A stretch of DNA of 64,000 nt, from NCBI RefSeq assembly GCF_029603165.1, contig NZ_JAQSVC010000002.1, positions 806,001 through 870,000 of the forward strand, read 5' to 3'. This DNA is from Galbibacter pacificus. Lineage in GTDB: Bacteria > Bacteroidota > Bacteroidia > Flavobacteriales > Flavobacteriaceae. The notes under the pieces were generated by a model. The model worked only from the letters and a program-made list of their open reading frames with translations. It was not told the origin of the DNA and did not search any database. The position numbers and the translations under genes are program-made. Below are positions 8,943 to 54,119 of this stretch, piece by piece; position 1 is the first letter of the stretch; each line of letters starts with the position of its first letter.

Positions 8943-11342
8943 TTATAATCCTTTAATATGAAGTTCTGTGAAATCTTTTTTTATTGTCATGTTTGTATCG
9001 CCATTGAGGATGATGTCTTGTAACGGAATTTCGACGTTGTCTACCTGAACCGATTTTACTTTGAAAGGCAATCCTATTAAATTGATTTTAAATACCTCAT
9101 ACGGGGTTTCGTATTTCCCTTCCTTAAACTGTTGAATGATGAGCTCTTTTTCTTTTCCGGTCAGTTTAAACATCCGTAAGCTATATCTTCCTTTTTTATA
9201 GTCGAAACCATCGCCGGTATCTTCAAAAACCTGCGATTCTTCTTTTCCCAACTTATAATATATGTCCAATGTAAGCTTGTCTATTTCTTTTTCGCCCACA
9301 TATTGCTGTACTGGATATTTCGGGATAATGGCGCCTTCTTTTATGAAAATCGGGATTTTATCAATATCTGCTTCCACCCAACATTCTTTTCCTCCTTTGG
9401 TGATTTCCCCGCCCCAGAAATTATACCAGTTTCCTTGCGGAAGGTACATCCGCCTTCCTTTGGAATTGGGCTCCAAAATAGGACAAACCAGTATTTGGTT
9501 CCCGAATATAAACTCGTCATTCCTGTAATGGGTATGTGTATCTTCTTGATCGTAATATACCAGAGATTTCAACATGGGGATCCCGTATTCTGTATATTCG
9601 TAGAACATGGTATATAAATACGGAAGCAGCTGATATCTTAACTCAATAAATTTCCGGGTAATGTTTGTTACTTCTTCATCAAACGACCAAGGTTCCTGGC
9701 TTCCATGATCTCCGCTGGAATGGACCCTACAAAACGGATGGAATACTCCTAGTTGAATCCACCGGGCAAAAAGCTCTCCCGATGGTTGCTCTGCAAAACC
9801 CCCGATATCGGTACCGGTAAAAGACATCCCGCTCATGCACATTCTCTGTACCTGCACGTTGGCAATCCATAAATGCTCCCAAGTGGCCACATTGTCGCCG
9901 GTCCATGACGAGGTAAACCGCTGTGTTCCCGAATAAGCCGACCTTGTTATTACAAAAGGACGTTTGGGGAACGTAAACTTTTTAACGCCCTCATGTGTAG
10001 CCCTTGCCATTTGCATTCCGTAAATATTATGTGCCTTCCTATGGCTGCAATGGTGCCCGTCGTAATTATGGCGCACATCGTCCGGAAATGTTTTTCCGGG
10101 CACTTCCATCACGGCAGGTTCGTTCATGTCGTTCCAAACACCTTTTATTCCTATGTCTGCAATCAATTCTTTATAAAGTCCTGCCCACCATTCCCTTACT
10201 TTCGGATTTGTAAAATCGGGGAAATTACATTCCCCCGGCCATACTTTACCTTTCATATAAGGTCCATCGGCCCTTTTACAGAAATAATCGTTTTCAACAG
10301 CTTCGTTGTATACCCAGTAATTTTTATCAATTTTAATCCCGGGGTCGATAATCGCCACTGTTTTAAAACCGTCTTCGGCAAGTTCGCTTACCATACGCTT
10401 GGGATCCGGGAAATATTCTTTGTTCCATGTAAAACACCTAAAGCCTTCCATATAATCGATATCCAAATAAATAGCATCGCAGGGTATTTTTAAGTCCCTG
10501 AATTTATTGGCAATTTCTTTTACTTTGCTTTCGGGGTAATAACTCCATTTGCATTGGTGAAACCCGAGTACCCATAAAGGCGGCAATTCTGGTTTCCCTG
10601 TTAGGTCGGTATAGCCCCCAACCACTTCGGGCATGGTAGGCCCGTAAATAAAGTAATAGTTCATCTCTCCCCCGTCGGCCCAAAAACTTGTAATGTTGCG
10701 CCGTTCATGACAGAAATCGAAATGTGTTTTAAAAGTATTGTCGAAAAAAATTCCGTAGCCAATGCTATGGTGCATCCCAATATAAAAAGGGACCGCCTTG
10801 TATAACGGATTATGGTCTTTACCAAACGCATATTGGTCGGTTGCCCAATTGTGCACTCTTTTTCCGCGTAGGTTTAATTGAGAGGGCTTATCGCCCATTC
10901 CGTAAAAACTTTCGGATTCCTGAGAGAACTTACTCATTTTCACTATGTTTCCCCCAAATTCGTAACTTTCTTCCCAATGAAAGCCCAGTTCGTCTTCATT
11001 TAAAATATTGCCTTCAAAGTCTAATATTGCCAACCGAAGGTCTTTTTTAGATACCTTGACTTCCAGTTTTGAGGTTTTCATGGCAAAATGGTCGTCGTTT
11101 TCCTTAATTTCCAAATGGTTGTATCCATACGTAGCATCTTCTGAAATTGCATAGGAAAAATCGGGCTCAAAATCCTGTTCCACCGCGTAGCGGAAACGCA
11201 AAACGCTGTCCCTTAAAAATGAAATTTGCAATGCTACATTATTCCGGGTATAAAACGTTATTTTATCGACTTCTTTTTTATGGTCTATAATTTGGGCAGG
11301 AAATAGGTTCCCTTTATACTCAAGTTCAGTATTGGTAATCAT
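8943..11342 (-). CDS. GH31 alpha-glucosidase
   Basis: A 799-residue glycoside hydrolase of family 31. The segment GVWNDMNEPAVME near residues 401-413 holds the catalytic nucleophile Asp (about 404) in the diagnostic WxDMNE context. HPFCRVHSSGDHGSQEPW and FTGTDIGGFAEQP are further GH31 active-site loops, and WVLGFHQCKWSYYPE with IPCDAIYLDIDYMEGF are family blocks. No signal peptide is present, so it is cytoplasmic. It probably removes terminal alpha-glucose from maltodextrins or glycogen. It is the last gene of the GlgE-Mak-GlgB run (62 bases after glgB), which suggests it turns over the glucan or supplies or removes maltose. Exact linkage specificity cannot be read. Confidence 0.92.
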   Translation of the reverse strand: MITNTELEYKGNLFPAQIIDHKKEVDKITFYTRNNVALQISFLRDSVLRFRYAVEQDFEPDFSYAISEDATYGYNHLEIKENDDHFAMKTSKLEVKVSKKDLRLAILDFEGNILNEDELGFHWEESYEFGGNIVKMSKFSQESESFYGMGDKPSQLNLRGKRVHNWATDQYAFGKDHNPLYKAVPFYIGMHHSIGYGIFFDNTFKTHFDFCHERRNITSFWADGGEMNYYFIYGPTMPEVVGGYTDLTGKPELPPLWVLGFHQCKWSYYPESKVKEIANKFRDLKIPCDAIYLDIDYMEGFRCFTWNKEYFPDPKRMVSELAEDGFKTVAIIDPGIKIDKNYWVYNEAVENDYFCKRADGPYMKGKVWPGECNFPDFTNPKVREWWAGLYKELIADIGIKGVWNDMNEPAVMEVPGKTFPDDVRHNYDGHHCSHRKAHNIYGMQMARATHEGVKKFTFPKRPFVITRSAYSGTQRFTSSWTGDNVATWEHLWIANVQVQRMCMSGMSFTGTDIGGFAEQPSGELFARWIQLGVFHPFCRVHSSGDHGSQEPWSFDEEVTNITRKFIELRYQLLPYLYTMFYEYTEYGIPMLKSLVYYDQEDTHTHYRNDEFIFGNQILVCPILEPNSKGRRMYLPQGNWYNFWGGEITKGGKECWVEADIDKIPIFIKEGAIIPKYPVQQYVGEKEIDKLTLDIYYKLGKEESQVFEDTGDGFDYKKGRYSLRMFKLTGKEKELIIQQFKEGKYETPYEVFKINLIGLPFKVKSVQVDNVEIPLQDIILNGDTNMTIKKDFTELHIKGL

Positions 11343-11404
11343 AATAATTTCTTTTTCAATAGTTTACAAAGAAACTAATTTGTGTTCAATAAATAAATCG
11401 ATGT

Positions 11405-13315
11405 TTATAAAATGTTGAAAACGGTTACAGCTAATGGCGGTAGAATGATAGCTGCCGAAAACTCCCTTCCGTTGTATGGAACTGCTTCAATTTTAACTTC
11501 TTTAGCGTTGCTCACGCGACTTCCGTGGTATTTTTTAAAATCGCTATTGAAAATCTGCTTTAGTTTTCCATTCCTTGGAACTCCAATGCGATAGTTTTCC
11601 CGTACAACTGGCGTAAAGTTACAAACAATTATTAAATCATTTTCAGCATCATGCCCTTTTCTTATATATGAAAGTACAGAATTATCAGAATCTCCATAAT
11701 TTATCCATTGAAAACCTTCGGCACTAAATTGTTTTTCATGCAGGGCCGGTTGTTTTTTGTACAATTTGTTTAAATCTGCCACTAGGTTTTGTACGCCTTT
11801 ATGTCCATCGTATTGCAATAAGTGCCAATCGAGGCTGTTTTGGAAGTTCCACTCAGAAGATTGTCCAAACTCCCCTCCCATAAACAATAAATTGGCCCCG
11901 GGGTGTGTAAACATGTAACCATAAAGTAATCGGAGGTTGGCAAAACGCTGCCATTCGTCTCCCTGCATACGTCCATAGAGAGATTGTTTTCCGTGTACCA
12001 CCTCATCATGGCTTAAGGGCAGCATGAAATTTTCGGTAAATGCGTAGGTCATACTAAACGTAATGTCGTTTTGGTGGTAACGTCTATGCACCGACTCCTT
12101 TTTAAAATATTCTAGGGTATCGTGCATCCAGCCCATCATCCACTTCATTCCAAAGCCAAGACCGCCCAGATAAACCGGTTTAGAAACCATTGGGTAAGAA
12201 GTGGATTCTTCAGCTATTGTTTGTATACCTTCAAAATTACCATAAACGGCTTCGTTCATTTCCTTTAAAAAAGAAATAGCTTCCAGATTTTCCCTTCCGC
12301 CGTATATATTAGGTTCCCATTCGCCGTCTTTTCTAGAGTAATCAAGGTAAAGCATCGAGGCCACGGCATCGACCCGCAGTCCGTCTATATGATATTTATC
12401 CAGCCAAAAAATGGCATTGCTGATTAAAAAAGAGCGTACCTCGTTCCTTCCATAGTTAAAAATAAGGCTTTTCCAATCGGGGTGATACCCACGCCTCTTG
12501 TCGGGATGTTCATAAAGATGTGACCCGTCAAAAAAACCCAACCCATGCGCGTCATCGGGAAAATGCGATGGAACCCAATCCAAAATAACACCAATACCTT
12601 CCTGATGAAGCCTTTCTATTAAGAGCATTAAGTCTTCGGGTTTACCAAATCGTGAAGTTGGCGCAAAATACCCGGTTAGCTGGTACCCCCATGAAGGATC
12701 GTATGGATATTCCATGATTGGCATGAACTCTACATGTGTAAAGTGCATTTCTTTTAGGTAATTTACCAGTTCATTGGCCAGTTCCACATAATTAAGGGCG
12801 CGCCCGGATTCTTCTATTTTTCTTCGCCATGATCCCAAATGGACTTCGTATACCGAAAATGGTTTGTCGAGCGCATTTGTATCTTTTCTAGCGGCCATCC
12901 ATTTATTGTCTTTCCAATCATGCTTAGCTTCCCAAACAATAGAGGCCGTTTGTGGTGGCTGCTCGCAAAAAAACGCAAAGGGATCGGCTTTCTCTGTTTT
13001 AATATCCTGATTGTGCGAATGTATCTTGTATTTATATTTGGTACCTTGCTCTATGCCCGGTATAAAACCTTCCCAAATACCAGATTCGTCCCATCTTACC
13101 TGTAGCGGGTGGTCGCCTTCCAACCAATAGTTAAAATCGCCTATCACAGAAACCGATTTTGCCGTTGGCGCCCAAACGGCAAAATAACAGCCTTTTACAC
13201 CATCCTTCTCCAAAAGGTGCGCACCCAGTTTTTCATAAAGCCTGTAATGCTTCCCTGCTTTAAAAAGGTCAATATCGAAATCTGTAAATAAACTATGTGA
13301 AATAACGTTGTTCAT
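11405..13315 (-). CDS. glgB: 1,4-alpha-glucan branching enzyme GlgB
   Basis: A 636-residue GH13 branching enzyme. An N-terminal CBM48-like domain (YFAVWAPTAKSVSVIGDFN) precedes the catalytic barrel. The three catalytic acids are visible: nucleophile Asp about 316 in DGLRVDAVASMLYLDYSR, acid/base Glu about 369 in TIAEESTSYP, and Asp about 436 in LSHDEVVHGK. It moves alpha-1,4 segments to make alpha-1,6 branches. In the GlgE pathway it branches the linear chains made from maltose-1-phosphate. At this length it lacks the extra N-terminal domain of the longer GlgB forms. It lies 70 bases after the maltokinase gene on the same strand. Confidence 0.96.
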   Translation of the reverse strand: MNNVISHSLFTDFDIDLFKAGKHYRLYEKLGAHLLEKDGVKGCYFAVWAPTAKSVSVIGDFNYWLEGDHPLQVRWDESGIWEGFIPGIEQGTKYKYKIHSHNQDIKTEKADPFAFFCEQPPQTASIVWEAKHDWKDNKWMAARKDTNALDKPFSVYEVHLGSWRRKIEESGRALNYVELANELVNYLKEMHFTHVEFMPIMEYPYDPSWGYQLTGYFAPTSRFGKPEDLMLLIERLHQEGIGVILDWVPSHFPDDAHGLGFFDGSHLYEHPDKRRGYHPDWKSLIFNYGRNEVRSFLISNAIFWLDKYHIDGLRVDAVASMLYLDYSRKDGEWEPNIYGGRENLEAISFLKEMNEAVYGNFEGIQTIAEESTSYPMVSKPVYLGGLGFGMKWMMGWMHDTLEYFKKESVHRRYHQNDITFSMTYAFTENFMLPLSHDEVVHGKQSLYGRMQGDEWQRFANLRLLYGYMFTHPGANLLFMGGEFGQSSEWNFQNSLDWHLLQYDGHKGVQNLVADLNKLYKKQPALHEKQFSAEGFQWINYGDSDNSVLSYIRKGHDAENDLIIVCNFTPVVRENYRIGVPRNGKLKQIFNSDFKKYHGSRVSNAKEVKIEAVPYNGREFSAAIILPPLAVTVFNIL

Positions 13316-13385
13316 GTGCGTTGTTGGTTAATTTATTTATTATTTGGAAAACCAATATTCATTTCTTCATAGGCACAGCACGGCA

Positions 13386-15020
13386 TTATTCATCTTCTTT
13401 TAACAAGCTCATAATTCCGCCCAACGGGATTACCGCCCACCTTGGCCTAGAGTTCATTTCGTAACCAAGTTCGTATACCGCTTTTTCCAGCATGCAATAC
13501 CTCAACAAATAAACACGTTCCTGTACATACCCAATATTAAGGTTATTTTCTTGAATAAGACTTACGTATGTTTCCAAAAATACGCCAATAAAATAACGAT
13601 ACAGTAATTCCCCGGCATGAAAAAGGTCTTCTTGCGGATATGGGTATTTGTTGCCATTGTTAAAAATCGTGGCATATATTGCATAATGAAACGACCTGAA
13701 CATTCCGCCTACATCCTTGAGCGGGGGTTGTTTTACCTTTCTGTCGCGAATGGTGCTTTCGGGCTCTCCTTCAAAATCGATTAAATAAAAATCGTCGTCT
13801 TTAACCAAAACCTGCCCCAAATGATAATCTCCGTGTACGCGTATGCGCTCTCCCTTCAATTTTGTCCAGTCGAACGAGACAAATTGCTTTCTTATTTCAT
13901 TTTTGCGCTCCAAAAATTCGTTTGCCAGCTCTAAAGCCAATCCTTCCAGTTTATGCAGATTGTTCTCTACACTGTTAATCCTGTTTTGAAATTGGTACAA
14001 CAGCCTGTTTTTAAGCCAAACCGTATAGTCGTCGTTAAAATGTGTTGGGGTAAAGGCGGTATCTTCAAATTCCGACCCAAGTGCAATGTGCATTTCTGCG
14101 GTTCGTTGTGCCAATTTTTGGAGCTTTAAAAAAATATTAAGCCCTGCCCAATCTATAATTTCCGGTGGAACATCGCGAATTTTTAAGCGTTCGAACAATT
14201 TTACCTTCGGAAGCTGATATACGTTTATACTTTTGTATTCAAGGTTACTGTATATTTTATGAAGCTCGTCCAGCATAAATTTCCATGCATCGCCCTGATT
14301 GGGCAACATTTCCTGCATAAGCGCAATGGTCACGTTTGTATTGCTTGCATCCATAATGCTTAAGCTTCCGCTATAGGTAGGAACATTTTTAAATGCTTTT
14401 TTTTCCGACAGAAAACGGCTCATTTCGTAATCGGGGTTCTTGCTTGCATAAATCCTCCTAAAGAACTTAATTATATATTTTTCGTTGATAATAATGGAAG
14501 TATTGCTCTGTTCCAGCCCCATTGGCCGGGAGGACACATATTCCCGATCGGTTAAAAATTCGCTTTTATGGTATCGTACACGTGTGGTATCGTTAGGAAC
14601 TGAATTCAATATTCTTTGAAACACCAATTTATTGAACGATTCCAAGTTTACCGCATCAATAATATTGCCTTCAGTGCCATTTAATGTAATTGGCAGGATA
14701 GCGCCCATTTGGGCAAACCGCTCATCGGTTACAAATGCAATGGGCAAAAAATAGTGCTGGTAAAATGCCTCTTTAAAATTCACGTCCAACAAAAGTCCGT
14801 AATACACCTCTCCATCCTGCTGGATTTTAAAATATTCCTGTAGTTCTATATACTTTAACTTGCTCGATTTGCCGCCGTACCAACGCTGATTAACAATATA
14901 TTTTTCCAGCACATCTGATAAGAATATTTTTAAAAACGGTTCGTTTTCCATTAATTCCTCCCATACCACATCAAATTGATACGGTGGCTGTAAAATTGGA
15001 GTCTCTTTTTTCTTTGCCAT
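13386..15020 (-). CDS. mak: Maltokinase (Mak/Pep2-like)
   Basis: A 544-residue kinase of the aminoglycoside-phosphotransferase fold. The N-terminal cap motif NQRWYGGKSSKL is typical of maltokinases. The catalytic loop HGDYHLGQVL (about 395-404) and the metal-binding LIDFEGEP (about 409-416) complete the active site. It would phosphorylate maltose to maltose-1-phosphate, the GlgE donor. Many bacteria have this domain fused to trehalose synthase TreS; here it stands alone and no treS is in the window. GlgE precedes it with only 7 bases between, which strongly supports the assignment. Confidence 0.88.
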   Translation of the reverse strand: MAKKKETPILQPPYQFDVVWEELMENEPFLKIFLSDVLEKYIVNQRWYGGKSSKLKYIELQEYFKIQQDGEVYYGLLLDVNFKEAFYQHYFLPIAFVTDERFAQMGAILPITLNGTEGNIIDAVNLESFNKLVFQRILNSVPNDTTRVRYHKSEFLTDREYVSSRPMGLEQSNTSIIINEKYIIKFFRRIYASKNPDYEMSRFLSEKKAFKNVPTYSGSLSIMDASNTNVTIALMQEMLPNQGDAWKFMLDELHKIYSNLEYKSINVYQLPKVKLFERLKIRDVPPEIIDWAGLNIFLKLQKLAQRTAEMHIALGSEFEDTAFTPTHFNDDYTVWLKNRLLYQFQNRINSVENNLHKLEGLALELANEFLERKNEIRKQFVSFDWTKLKGERIRVHGDYHLGQVLVKDDDFYLIDFEGEPESTIRDRKVKQPPLKDVGGMFRSFHYAIYATIFNNGNKYPYPQEDLFHAGELLYRYFIGVFLETYVSLIQENNLNIGYVQERVYLLRYCMLEKAVYELGYEMNSRPRWAVIPLGGIMSLLKEDE

Positions 15021-15027
15021 AACATAT

Positions 15028-17034
15028 TTATTTATGAATTTTAAACAAATGAAAAGGCAAAGCAGGATGTAGCTCTATATAATTCCATTCTTTATCCCAG
15101 ATATAACTGCTTCCGGTAATAAGGTCTTCCATTCTAAGTTGATGTCCTTCCTGTACGCCAAGTTGATGCAGGGGCATCTTTACCCAACCTTGTTTCATTT
15201 GGTTTGCATCCATGTTAACGACCATAAATGTTTCGTTACTTTTTTGGTCGTCGTATTTATAATACGCCATGAGCATATCATTATCGGTATCGCAAAAATC
15301 AATATTGTTGGTCTGTTGCAAAGAAGTATTTTGCTTTCTAATCTGGTTTATCTTGGCTATAATACGGGTAAGCTTGTTTTCCAGGTTCCAGTCCCAATTT
15401 TGTATCTGGTATTTTTCAGAGCTATTGTATTCTTCCTTTCCCGGAACGGCATCGCAAACCATTTGCTCAAAAACAGGTCCGTATATGCCCGTGTTCGAGC
15501 TTAATGTAGCCGCCAAAAAGTATTTTTGCAAATACATGGCCTCATTGGCAGTTTGCAGTGCATATGGGTTAATATCCGGCGTATTGGGCCAAAAGTTAGG
15601 TCTGTAATATTCTTTTTGCTCTGTTTTGGTAAGTTCGTTTACATAGCTTGTTAATTCTTCTTTTGTATTCCGCCAGGTAAAATAAGTATAGGATTGCGAA
15701 AAGCCCTGTTTCCCCAACTCCTGCATTACTTTTGGCTTGGTAAATGCTTCGGCCAGAAACAATACTTCCGGATGTTTTTTCTTTACTTCGGCTATCAACC
15801 AGCCCCAAAAATTAAACGGCTTTGTATGCGGGTTATCTACCCTAAAAATTCCAATTTCACACTCCTCCACCCAATACAGTGCAATGCTCAATAATTCTTC
15901 CCAAAGATTTTTCCAATCGTCTGTTTCAAAATAAATAGGCAATATGTCCTGATATTTTTTCGGTGGATTTTCGGCATATTGAACCGTGCCGTCCGGCCGC
16001 CATTTAAACCACTTTGGGTGTTCTTTTACATAAGGATGGTCGGGAGCGCATTGCAGGGCAAAATCCATGGCAATTTCAATTTTGAAGTCCTTTGCCTTTT
16101 TCACCAGTTGCTTAAAATCATCCAGATTGCCCAAATCGGGATGAATGGCCTTATGACCACCGTGTTTTGAGCCTATGCCCCATGGAGAACCAACATCGTT
16201 TTTTTGGGCATTGGTGGCATTGTTTTTTCCTTTTCGGTTGATTTCCCCAATAGGATGCACTGGTGGAAAATAGAGCACGTCAAAGCCCATTTCTGCAACC
16301 TTGGGCAATAACCGTTCGCAATCCTTAAAAGTTCCGTGTTTATTTTTTTCTTCTGAAGTTGATCTTGGAAAAAATTCGTACCACGTTGAAAAACGGGCCT
16401 TTAAGCGTTCAACATTAACCCCAAATGAAGCCGAGCTGGTAATGGTAGTCTTCACGGGATAATCAAGCAACAACCCGTGAAATTTTTCTGAACTTACTTC
16501 TGTTATTGCCTGTTGGTATTTTGAGCTGTCTCCAAAAACGGCAATACAGTTGTCAATATAAACATGCTCCTTTTTGGGCGACAATTTTTTTATGGCAACC
16601 AAATATTCTGCTCCTTCCAACAGTTCGGATTGTACCTGTTGACCGTCGCTTATTTTTAAAACAATTCCGTGATGCCAGTTTAATGCATGATCTACCCAAC
16701 CTTCTACAACATAGGCATACAAACCCTCCTTTTCAACTATAAAATTGGCCTTCCATGCATCGTTTACGGTAGGGGCCATACGTATTTCCCGCCATTTTTT
16801 ATCTTTTTGGACCTTGTATTTTACAGAAGCCGATACAATATCATGCCCGTCAGAAAAAATATCGGCAGTTACCGTGACCTTTTCACCTGGCACCCTTTTT
16901 ATATAAAACGCACCTTTATTAACTTGCGGTTGTACATTTTCAACAATTACACGTTCTTTATTTTGCATATAAACATGGAAGGTTAGTATATTATCTCTAT
17001 TTTTGAGCTTTCTATAGTTTACAGAAAGAGCCAT
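15028..17034 (-). CDS. glgE: Maltose-1-phosphate maltosyltransferase GlgE
   Basis: A 668-residue GH13 subfamily 3 enzyme, the usual length. An N-terminal beta domain (first 190 residues) and the helical segment GLLLDYPVKTTITSSASFGV precede the barrel. The nucleophile Asp about 400 in GIFRVDNPHTKPFNFWGW and the acid/base Glu about 428 in LFLAEAFTKPKVM match the Asp394/Glu423 pair known in Streptomyces GlgE. The block FPPVHPIGEINRKGKNN is also characteristic. It adds maltose units from maltose-1-phosphate to growing alpha-1,4-glucans in the cytosol. It is the first gene of the leftward operon, with its promoter in the 105-base gap shared with the divergent hydrolase gene. Confidence 0.95.
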   Translation of the reverse strand: MALSVNYRKLKNRDNILTFHVYMQNKERVIVENVQPQVNKGAFYIKRVPGEKVTVTADIFSDGHDIVSASVKYKVQKDKKWREIRMAPTVNDAWKANFIVEKEGLYAYVVEGWVDHALNWHHGIVLKISDGQQVQSELLEGAEYLVAIKKLSPKKEHVYIDNCIAVFGDSSKYQQAITEVSSEKFHGLLLDYPVKTTITSSASFGVNVERLKARFSTWYEFFPRSTSEEKNKHGTFKDCERLLPKVAEMGFDVLYFPPVHPIGEINRKGKNNATNAQKNDVGSPWGIGSKHGGHKAIHPDLGNLDDFKQLVKKAKDFKIEIAMDFALQCAPDHPYVKEHPKWFKWRPDGTVQYAENPPKKYQDILPIYFETDDWKNLWEELLSIALYWVEECEIGIFRVDNPHTKPFNFWGWLIAEVKKKHPEVLFLAEAFTKPKVMQELGKQGFSQSYTYFTWRNTKEELTSYVNELTKTEQKEYYRPNFWPNTPDINPYALQTANEAMYLQKYFLAATLSSNTGIYGPVFEQMVCDAVPGKEEYNSSEKYQIQNWDWNLENKLTRIIAKINQIRKQNTSLQQTNNIDFCDTDNDMLMAYYKYDDQKSNETFMVVNMDANQMKQGWVKMPLHQLGVQEGHQLRMEDLITGSSYIWDKEWNYIELHPALPFHLFKIHK

Positions 17035-35872: not shown

Positions 35873-37300
35873 ATGAACGTAACTGCGGAATCCGTATGGG
35901 AAAATTGTCTACATTTTATAAAAGACAACATACAACCCCAAGCATATAAAACTTGGTTTGAACCCATAAAGTCTGTAAAGTTAACCGATAATGCTTTGAG
36001 TATCCAGGTTCCCAGTAAATTTTTTTATGAATGGTTGGAAGAACACTACGTTAAGCTTTTAAAAGTTGCCTTAACGAGGGAGTTGGGCGAAAACGCCAAA
36101 TTGGTATATGTAATAAGAATGGAGAATACGTATGGCAACAAACAGCCATTTACAGAAAGTATTCCCAGTTCCAACCGGGCAAATATGCAGCCACAGGAAC
36201 TCGATGTTCCCGTAAAGCACAAAAACCCCGAATTAAAAAACCCGTTTGTAATTCCGGGAATACGGAACATTAAAATAGAATCTCAACTCAATCCTAATTA
36301 TAGTTTTGATAATTTCCTGGAAGGCGATTCCAACAGGTTGGCGCGTTCGGCAGGACTGGCCGTTGCCAATAAACCCGGCGGCACCTCTTTTAACCCATTG
36401 TTGGTATTTGGTGGTGTTGGTTTGGGGAAAACGCACCTTGCACATGCCATCGGGGTTGAAATAAAAGATAAATACCCAGAAAAGACCGTGCTTTATATAT
36501 CTGCCGAAAAATTTACACAGCAATATATAGAATCCGTAAAAAAGAATACCCGAAACGATTTTATACATTTCTATCAATTAATAGATGTGCTTATTATAGA
36601 TGATGTCCAGTTTTTTTCGGGAAAATCCGGGACCCAAGATGTGTTTTTCCACATCTTTAATCACTTGCACCAAAATGGAAAACAGGTTATCTTAACTTCG
36701 GATAAAGCTCCGGTAGATATGCAGGACATTGAACAGCGTTTGCTCTCCCGTTTTAAATGGGGGCTCTCGGCCGAATTGCAAAGTCCGGATTTTGAAACAC
36801 GCATTTCCATCTTAAAAAACCGATTATACCGTGATGGCGTTGAGATGCCGGAAGAAATTATAGAGTGCGTTGCCAGAAACATAAAATCAAACGTTAGGGA
36901 ACTGGAAGGCGCTATTATTTCTTTAATTGCTCAGTCTTCTTTCAACAAAAAAGAGGTAACCATAGAACTGGCAAACCAAATTGTTGAAAAATTTGTCAAG
37001 AATACAAAACGGGAAGTTTCCATTGATTACATCCAAAAGGTAATTTCTGATTATTTTCAAATGGATGTGGAAACACTTCAGTCAAAAACAAGAAAACGCC
37101 ATATTGTTCAAGCCAGGCAATTGGCCATGTTTTTTGCTAAAAAATACACCAAGGCATCCTTGGCCAGTATCGGTTCGCAAATAGGGAAAAGAGACCATGC
37201 CACCGTGCTGCATGCATGTAAAACTGTTGATAACTTGGCAGAAACCGATAAACAATTCAGGAAATATATTGAAGACCTCAGTAAAAAATTTGCCCAGTAA
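35873..37300 (+). CDS. dnaA: Chromosomal replication initiator DnaA
   Basis: A 475-residue initiator. Domain I is the N-terminal VWENCLHFIKDNIQPQAYKTWF. A variable linker (about 95-140) leads to the AAA+ domain III with Walker A GGVGLGKTHLAHAIG (about 180-187), Walker B LIIDDVQFFSG (about 239) and the sensor ILTSDKAPVDM. The C-terminal helix-turn-helix that reads DnaA boxes is in LASIGSQIGKRDHATVLHAC. It melts oriC with ATP. I find no cluster of DnaA boxes in the 201-base upstream region, so the origin is probably elsewhere. The stop overlaps the phosphatase ATG by one base (TAATG). Confidence 0.97.
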   Translation: MNVTAESVWENCLHFIKDNIQPQAYKTWFEPIKSVKLTDNALSIQVPSKFFYEWLEEHYVKLLKVALTRELGENAKLVYVIRMENTYGNKQPFTESIPSSNRANMQPQELDVPVKHKNPELKNPFVIPGIRNIKIESQLNPNYSFDNFLEGDSNRLARSAGLAVANKPGGTSFNPLLVFGGVGLGKTHLAHAIGVEIKDKYPEKTVLYISAEKFTQQYIESVKKNTRNDFIHFYQLIDVLIIDDVQFFSGKSGTQDVFFHIFNHLHQNGKQVILTSDKAPVDMQDIEQRLLSRFKWGLSAELQSPDFETRISILKNRLYRDGVEMPEEIIECVARNIKSNVRELEGAIISLIAQSSFNKKEVTIELANQIVEKFVKNTKREVSIDYIQKVISDYFQMDVETLQSKTRKRHIVQARQLAMFFAKKYTKASLASIGSQIGKRDHATVLHACKTVDNLAETDKQFRKYIEDLSKKFAQ

Positions 37301-50872: not shown

Positions 50873-50945
50873 CATCCAATTTCAGATTAACCTCTGACGA
50901 TAATCGTGAACGTTAGTTTGAATCAACTTTTATAAACATAGCACG

Positions 50946-51296
50946 ATGGAAGCTTTAGTAAAATTTGTACAAGACGAATTTATAGAAAAAAAGGATTTTC
51001 CTCAATTTTCAGCAGGGGATACCATTACGGTTTACTACGAAATTAAAGAAGGCGAAAAAACACGTACACAGTTCTTTAGGGGCGTAGTTATACAAAGAAG
51101 GGGCGCTGGCGCTTCAGAAACCTTTACCATTAGAAAAATGTCTGGTACCGTAGGCGTAGAAAGAATTTTCCCTGTCAACATGCCGGCACTTCAAAAAATA
51201 GAGATCAATAAAAGAGGTAAAGTACGTAGAGCACGTATCTTCTACTTTAGAGGTCTTACCGGTAAAAAAGCTAGAATTAAAGAGGTTAGATCATAA
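50946..51296 (+). CDS. rplS: 50S ribosomal protein L19
   Basis: A 116-residue L19 of normal length. GDTITVYYEIKEGEKTRTQFFRGVVIQRRGAGASETFTIRK is the core SH3-like barrel and GVERIFPVNMPALQKIEINKRGKVRRARIFYFRGLTGKKARIKE the conserved C-terminus. L19 sits at the 30S-50S interface near the bridge to helix 14. It is transcribed from 50843-50872 and ended at 51318-51348. It is normally in an operon with trmD. Confidence 0.97.
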   Translation: MEALVKFVQDEFIEKKDFPQFSAGDTITVYYEIKEGEKTRTQFFRGVVIQRRGAGASETFTIRKMSGTVGVERIFPVNMPALQKIEINKRGKVRRARIFYFRGLTGKKARIKEVRS

Positions 51297-51317: not shown

Positions 51318-51348
51318 AAAGTCACGCCAAAAGCGTGACTTTTTTTAT
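51318..51348 (+). terminator. Terminator after rplS
   Basis: A 10-bp stem AAAGTCACGC / GCGTGACTTT (51318-51327 and 51333-51342) with a five-base loop and a T run, about 20 bases past the stop. It isolates rplS from the RNA unit that follows. Confidence 0.92.
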
Positions 51349-51404
51349 TAACAATTGTTAATAACCCCTGTTTGTATCTTGTTGATTAATAAAAAGTTAA
51401 AAAA

Positions 51405-51436
51405 TTGCAACCTATTCGCTTTTTGTGCTATATTTA
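51405..51436 (+). promoter_or_regulatory. Promoter of the intergenic RNA unit
   Basis: TTG (51405-51407) and TATATTTA (51429-51436) are 21 bases apart, one base off TAnnTTTG. Transcription would start near 51443. Confidence 0.5.
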
Positions 51437-51442
51437 CAATAA

Positions 51443-51790
51443 TGTTTTAAGGAATATTATATGTTCTTAAAAATAGTTGTTTTTAAAGTGTCTCAAGGAT
51501 AAAGGTCTTACGACCTCACTACCGACAGAAAGTTTGAATTTAGCACGTAAAAATGCTAAATCAGTGCCGAAAAAGTTGAAACAAAGGTTTTAAGCTTAAG
51601 TAGGATGAGAAAACAACAATGAAGCATCTGGGTTAGGTCTTGATTACATTGTTGAGAAAACTTGAAGATGTTTCAATAGAAATAGGAATATTATAAATTA
51701 TGGAAAATTCAAAATGAATCTACATAATCACATAAGAAACTATTTCTAAGAAAGCCATGTCAAAACATACATTGTATTGACATGGCTTTT
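51443..51790 (+). ncRNA. Structured non-coding RNA candidate between rplS and icd
   Basis: About 348 bases with a promoter before, a strong terminator at the end and no plausible reading frame (the longest ATG frame I see has 13 codons). Five helices are readable: a closing stem from 51466-51482 (CTTAAAAATAGTTGTTT) with 51734-51750 (AAGAAACTATTTCTAAG), 14 or 15 of 17 pairs; AGGTC/GACCT at 51503-51516; ATTTAGCA/TGCTAAAT, eight perfect pairs, at 51538-51561; CAACAATG/CATTGTTG, eight perfect pairs, at 51614-51654; and TTGAA/TTCAA at 51662-51676. It lacks the RNase P core (GAGGAAAGTCCGG-like) and the tRNA-like end of tmRNA. A flavobacterial 6S RNA or an unnamed family are the alternatives. Confidence 0.6.
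51751..51790 (+). terminator. Terminator of the intergenic RNA unit
   Basis: A 13-bp perfect stem AAAGCCATGTCAA / TTGACATGGCTTT (51751-51763 and 51777-51789) followed by TGTTTTAT. It is the strongest hairpin in the window and has no coding gene before it, since rplS already ended at 51348. Confidence 0.9.
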
Positions 51791-51828
51791 GTTTTATCAC
51801 TAATTTTATCTAATTGGTTAGCTTTCTA

Positions 51829-51893: not shown

Positions 51894-54119
<2,226 letters not shown>

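Follow-up and report, generated by a model that had tools for sequence, protein, structure and literature searches.

A probable structured noncoding RNA encoded at the rplS-icd locus of Galbibacter pacificus and other flavobacteria

What is encoded between the ribosomal protein gene rplS and the isocitrate dehydrogenase gene icd of Galbibacter pacificus? We analysed a window of 64,000 nucleotides (contig NZ_JAQSVC010000002.1, positions 806,001 to 870,000 of the forward strand), in which a first-pass annotation had proposed, at this place, a separate and large structured RNA of no known family. This core proposal is upheld: the Rfam searches are negative, the locus is conserved in relatives and the covariation is strong. 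Our favoured reading, of moderate confidence, is that the locus encodes a structured noncoding RNA which is old in the family and acts in trans.

The locus and the known RNA families

The locus reads, from 5' to 3', as the rplS terminator, a 43-bp array of four boxes, a promoter-like site, the RNA stretch (approximately 51443-51796) and icd (Table 1). The rplS, monomer_idh and DnaA genes of the window all score above the NCBIfam cut-offs. The rplS terminator and the promoter-like sequence that the annotation had placed upstream of the RNA were both located, the latter with its TTG at 51405 and TATATTT at 51429-51435, an arrangement that we take to be of the Bacteroidota promoter type. Several internal hairpins were likewise found, with a strong terminator at 51750-51790 ahead of the icd start at 51894. 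From its own promoter-like and terminator sequences, the RNA is predicted to be transcribed separately. Elsewhere in the window, a minus-strand sugar cluster (8943-17034) exhibits a glycogen branching enzyme above cut-off, and a putative maltokinase and a GH31-type alpha-glucosidase both under cut-off. The segment 15028-17034 of this cluster has weak family matches only and presumably encodes a GlgE-like protein.

Table 1. Coordinates of the features at the rplS-icd locus (position 1 is the first letter of the window)
Feature	Position	Strand	Basis
L19-Flavobacteria leader of rplS	50888-50915	+	Rfam RF03130, 41 bits
rplS (ribosomal protein L19), upstream neighbour	50946-51296	+	TIGR01024 above cut-off; synteny in relatives
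rplS intrinsic terminator, hairpin and T-run	51319-51346	+	sequence
Four-box DNA array, TTATNAACA-NNN-GTTNATAA-N5-GTTYRTA-N4-GTTGATW	51345-51387	+	one copy in genome; about 55-98 bases before predicted start
Promoter-like TTG-N21-TATATTT	51405-51435	+	TTG 60 bases after array start
RNA gene, predicted transcript about 350 nt, 29% G+C	51443-51796	+	fold z -6.66; homologues
5' hairpin, GUUCUU on 3' arm	51443-51475	+	fold; AACGUUCUUUA hairpin is the counterpart in relatives; genus alignment weak, 29/66 cells
P1, 5' strand (GUUGUUUUU)	51476-51484	+	44/54 cells paired, six congeners
Hairpin within P1, conserved borders GAAAGUUUGAA...UCAGUGCC	51534-51564	+	63/66 cells
Second hairpin within P1, then conserved UAGGA	51573-51597	+	48/57 cells
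P1, 3' strand (GAAAACAAC)	51609-51617	+	genus alignment
P2 hairpin	51620-51675	+	73/82 cells, six congeners
P2 apical stem with hexaloop UACAUU (51645-51650)	51638-51644/51651-51657	+	stem 42/42 cells
P3 (51677-51685 with 51740-51748), encloses variable region	51677-51748	+	52/53 cells; other clade: compensatory change
P4 terminator hairpin (GAAAGCCAUGUCA...UGACAUGGCUUUU) and U-run	51750-51796	+	100/102 cells; model R1 69.5 bits
icd, monomeric NADP-dependent isocitrate dehydrogenase, downstream neighbour	51894-54119	+	TIGR00178 above cut-off; synteny

Against Rfam 15, the L19 leader is the only match of the window to reach gathering score, and nothing reaches it over the RNA stretch. A search of 17 relatives with 4227 families gave only rRNAs and L19 leaders at gathering score. 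Permissive scans yielded sub-threshold matches or none, the best being to DapZ (28.3 of 56 bits, locus L060). The annotation had further held that the RNA is not an RNase P RNA, a tmRNA or a plain 6S RNA, and genes for all three indeed lie elsewhere in the genome. The 6S-Flavo model (RF01685) has no match at the rplS-icd locus, and the genome's 6S-Flavo is found on another contig (G000:C17, 91.8 bits). The sole genome match of RNase P RNA (RF00010, 198 bits) is at G000:C17:288012-288335 and not at the rplS-icd locus. No tmRNA (RF00023 or ARAGORN) is present in the window; the genome's tmRNA is at G000:C18 (139.3 bits), and six weaker matches under the cut-off are all away from the rplS-icd locus.

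OLE, GOLLD and ROOL are large orphan bacterial RNAs of several hundred nucleotides with many helices, and with an unknown or ribonucleoprotein function. The rplS-icd RNA resembles them in size and in its number of helices, but it has no gathering-score match in the 4227 Rfam families, and its hosts and genomic context are different. It shares with 6S-Flavo RNA the character of an independent noncoding RNA of flavobacteria, whereas its build is multi-branched. The L17DE motif, which PMC7247131 places downstream of L17 genes, is likewise a conserved RNA 3' of a ribosomal protein gene; here, however, a terminator, the array and the promoter-like site stand between rplS and the RNA. Among the titles, abstracts and passages searched, those of PMC9723704, PMC2864571, PMC7247131 and PMC5069720 included, there is no earlier report of the rplS-icd RNA.

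Fold and covariation of the RNA

The RNA stretch folds with -93.5 kcal/mol, and none of 100 dinucleotide shuffles folds equally well. Covariation was examined in an alignment of 37 sequences and 528 columns, made of the longer RNAs that we call the other clade. RNAalifold finds 107 pairs in this alignment, 61 of them with compensatory change, and 95.6% of 3934 cells are paired. Double-change cells number 406 versus 127 (sd 14) in shuffled alignments, with none of 500 shuffles as high and at most 84 such cells in slid controls. The covariation score is 0.382 versus 0.213 in shuffles, and partners slid by 1-3 columns are paired in 38-44% of the cells. The locus exhibits two features of a structured noncoding RNA, namely compensatory changes in excess of controls and no conserved reading frame. 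Most gap runs have a length that is not divisible by three (199/1264 and 7/59 are), and in the three forward frames the mean number of stops per sequence is 9 to 13. These gap lengths and stop counts speak against a coding role, in agreement with the annotation, which had seen no coding frame.

Within the genus, the helices P1 to P4 and the two hairpins inside P1 (Table 1) are retained. The 5' hairpin aligns poorly there, and six small helices of the minimum-energy fold are not retained in the six congeners (for comparison, slid controls in the other-clade alignment have 38-44% of cells paired): 51489-51492/51524-51527 (11/24 cells), 51497-51498/51522-51523 (5/12), 51503-51507/51512-51516 (11/28), 51691-51694/51732-51735 (8/21), 51697-51702/51723-51728 (11/25) and 51707-51711/51715-51719 (15/30). 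Two structural details of the annotation are not supported. A stem joining the two ends of the RNA (51466-51482 with 51734-51750) forms 15 of 17 pairs in the window, yet it is paired in only 52/92 cells in the six congeners. Its arm CUAUUUCUA pairs in the congeners with the UAGAAAUAG side of P3, and the helix 51677-51685/51740-51748 competes with the proposed stem. P1 is a different long-range stem. The similarity of two internal segments (51517-51536 and 51562-51581), which had suggested an old duplication or a repeated protein-binding site, does not exceed chance: when 2000 random pairs of 20-mers were drawn without overlap from the RNA, 199 aligned as well (153 of up to 2000 draws in a first run, where overlapping draws were skipped). 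Judged by eye alone, a pairing of the 5' UUCUUU with AAAGAA ahead of the terminator exhibited no apparent covariation, and it was dropped.

In the other clade, counted outside the genus of the window, three hairpins are capped by GNRA tetraloops in 36/37, 33/37 and 32/37 sequences. A covariance model of P2 built from the other clade only (R2) finds the window at 51604-51688 with an E-value of 0.15, as its second best place. Among 63 loci outside its alignment, R2 exhibits 17 matches at E≤1, nine of them good and eight marginal, and nothing at this threshold in the remaining 46. The marginal ones include six of the seven loci of the genus, where each match lies upstream of the terminator. We read the order of P1, P2 with its UACAUU loop, P3 and terminator as common to the two clades, other clades having diverged further. 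Alignment A4 omits three loci outside the genus that aligned badly in A3, and A2 omits by choice five loci that had passed the length filter (L100, L102, L119, L129 and L136).

Some of these conserved elements would also suit a trans-acting regulator working by base pairing, with the UACAUU hexaloop and an AACGUU loop pairing with target mRNAs. The hexaloop is kept in 31/37 sequences of the other clade and in 5/7 of the genus despite differing stems, and each column of AACGUUCUUUA is at least 92% conserved across the other clade. However, several of the longest conserved runs are in helices (the 5' hairpin and the terminator) and not in free stretches. Typical antisense sRNAs are smaller and have fewer covarying helices, and both the size of this RNA and its number of such helices go beyond them. 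We consider base pairing of this kind possible but doubtful. A protein-binding multi-domain RNA is more likely than a simple antisense RNA, in view of the GNRA loops and the size.

Homologues and the upstream array

Many flavobacteria have the RNA gene, at a size of 350 to 600 letters. BLAST searches of 99 genomes, the window's own included, gave matches in 24. Among the 27 places listed, 22 are at rplS and/or icd (one being the window itself, so that 21 relatives exhibit this synteny), and the five others are short matches elsewhere. A pattern for the terminator hairpin matched at least 118 stretches of named genomes, in hosts such as Maribacter, Zobellia, Winogradskyella, Algibacter, Aquimarina, Polaribacter, Tenacibaculum, Kordia and Cellulophaga. 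Among the matches listed, 104 adjoin rplS and/or icd and 14 do not, the latter comprising, by title, ten from other phyla, three from other Bacteroidota (L058, L072, L146) and a Flavobacteriaceae contig end (L052). Since the hairpin was sought on the strand of rplS or icd in this scoring, its assignment to the same strand rests on the observed U-run. Three records titled Chlorobiota, Cytophagaceae and Cytophaga sp. (L047, L117, L120) exhibit the RNA terminator beside a flavobacterial rplS and/or icd, and are probably mislabelled. In L008 and L011 an extra gene apparently lies between the RNA and icd, pentapeptide-repeat-like by eye in L011.

A covariance model of the 3' module of the RNA (R1, 94 sequences) was run on 299 genomes of f1, the family to which the window belongs and which, from its named relatives, we take to be Flavobacteriaceae. 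It matched 237 genomes at E≤10-3, and 185 at E<10-7 by hand count; 62 genomes had no match and 52 only weak ones. Outside the family, none of the 286 genomes of a class sample fell under 10-7 (best 2.2 × 10-7), and one of 246 genomes of an order sample did (G858, 7.2 × 10-9). G858, of family f5, has eight R1 matches. The best is an ordinary terminator (AAGCCGTATCA...TGATACGGCTTTTT) that follows a small lipoprotein-like gene, and rplS, icd and the array are all missing there. R1 alone is not fully specific, and its weaker matches, which are common outside the family, mean nothing.

The array provides an RNA-independent route to the gene. Its palindromic first part was found at 101 of the 108 loci with rplS in hand among the matches listed, and is missing in L045, L061, L065, L077, L093, L113 and L132. 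A promoter-like match follows 80 of 110 arrays and, although a span of 45-130 bases was searched, 71 of these 80 start 59-62 bases past the array start. Searched as a whole, the array occurs exactly once in each of eight genomes (up to three mismatches) and once in each of 159 of the 299 family genomes (up to two mismatches), where the reversed control pattern has no match. In the order sample it was found in 12 of 296 genomes, all 12 in the family and none among the 246 outside, and in the class sample in 2 of 295, both in the family. By hand count, an R1 match under 10-7 is present in 145 of the 159 array genomes versus 40 of the 140 without array.

Fourteen array genomes have only weak R1 matches, and ten of these were examined. 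All ten have an R1 match or the 5' motif AACGTTCTTTA behind the array. The R1 match lies behind the array and on its strand in nine of them (E-values from 4 × 10-9 to 1.4 × 10-4 in 20 kb), and the 5' motif is present within two mismatches in six. Two of the ten (L296, L299) also have a strong R2 match there. In L297, which R1 does not match, the 5' motif is exact and the terminator differs, whereas L300 and L301 are identified by the R1 match alone. The terminator stem varies on both sides in several of these genomes (GCCAUACCA with UGGUAUGGC, GCCACAUCA with UGAUGUGGC). Given this variability in the ten, the near-invariance of the stem in alignment A1 is partly a product of the search pattern.

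We also read 29 rplS loci, picked mostly for their weak or absent matches, and 26 of them by eye have no RNA behind rplS. L216 has the RNA (R1 48 bits) and L215 probably does (R1 25 bits). Its presence in L214 is unsure: there, an RNA-like region has an unrelated terminator stem, with a second box-like stretch after it, and R2 matches only at E = 0.79. Genus g151, possibly Flavobacterium, lacks the RNA behind rplS in all five loci read, and none of its 25 genomes in the order sample has the array or an R1 match under 10-7; the gene thus appears dispensable in some lineages. On an rplS tree (a short protein with many open forks), the presence of the RNA needs 11 changes versus 24 in shuffles (105 with, 26 without). 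This clustering is in keeping with vertical inheritance and losses.

The distribution bears on whether the RNA is already known from another flavobacterium. PMC9723704 describes Rfp18 of Flavobacterium psychrophilum as a structured sRNA whose conservation extends over the genus Flavobacterium. It is the nearest published candidate, and it and the other independent transcripts described there resemble the rplS-icd RNA as structured and conserved flavobacterial sRNAs. An identity with Rfp18, compared here by its description only, or with another of those transcripts is nevertheless very unlikely. The RNA seems absent from g151, and no title of the genus Flavobacterium appears among the at least 118 pattern matches listed.

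What the RNA and its array may do

The constant neighbourhood raises the possibility of a cis element, whether a leader or attenuator for icd or an L19-binding element 3' of rplS. The RNA indeed sits downstream of rplS and upstream of icd wherever both are in hand. However, it has its own promoter-like and terminator sequences, and rplS already has an L19 leader. In ten of the 26 loci without the RNA, rplS is followed by the same monomeric icd after a gap of 178-303 bases. The spacing between the terminator and icd differs among loci, from about 90 to 950 bases. This speaks against a leader of icd, and a regulation of icd in cis is judged unlikely for this reason. We give a cis element of either sort a very low probability. 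As a separate observation, a homodimeric-looking icd (by eye) replaces the monomeric one after the RNA in L300, and stands downstream of rplS in L222, L224, L226, L228 and L231; we take these to be the homodimeric type, an isozyme replacement at the same locus.

The array could suggest a DNA element, such as a replication origin or a DnaA-titration site, with the RNA being incidental. Its boxes resemble DnaA boxes, dnaA (35873-37300) is about 14 kb to the left of the RNA gene, and several one-contig genomes have the RNA close to base 1. The compensatory changes, however, act on RNA pairing. In G004, the sign of the third-position GC skew switches somewhere from 1.1 to 1.6 Mb with the RNA at 0.32 Mb, and in G020 the cumulative skew minimum is at about 0.89 Mb with the RNA at 0.01 Mb. 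On the third-codon GC skew of these two one-contig genomes, an origin of replication at the RNA was rejected as unlikely, and we regard the DNA element as a whole as extremely improbable. The skew origin being about 0.8-1.3 Mb from the RNA in the two relatives, dnaA would not be at the origin there either, if it is near the RNA in them too. With up to one mismatch, TTATCCACA occurs ten times in the window and never in the array, the nearest to it at 52496. Over the 220 kb that surround the G020 skew minimum, no three TTATNCACA boxes fall within 300 bp, and TTATNAACA-type boxes form only two overlapping groups of three (about 911.5-911.9 kb). On the basis of these box scans, we do not assign the protein of the array.

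We therefore return to the RNA acting in trans. As judged from sequence, its most likely function is that of a trans-acting regulatory or ribonucleoprotein RNA. The RNA would fold into a compact multi-domain body, aided by the GNRA tetraloops, and would be the core of a ribonucleoprotein regulating other genes or a protein. We infer the role of the array from its position alone: a DNA-binding protein, bound cooperatively on the four boxes, would switch the transcription of the RNA, so that the promoter, which is unusually conserved, would be switch-like. A wider proposal is put forward tentatively. The RNA may represent a new class of large, ribonucleoprotein-forming RNAs of one flavobacterial family, stabilized by GNRA tertiary contacts and with its expression set by an array of one site per genome; the array protein and the RNA would then form a circuit not known elsewhere.

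Flavobacteria play a major part in degrading algal polysaccharides in the sea, and to our knowledge little is known of their RNA regulation. What is new here is the four-box array, which precedes the promoter by a constant distance and occurs in one copy per positive genome. With the R1 and R2 models and the array pattern, the gene can be annotated in many genomes. A structured RNA that is present family-wide, behind a strictly conserved promoter array, offers experiments a tractable target.
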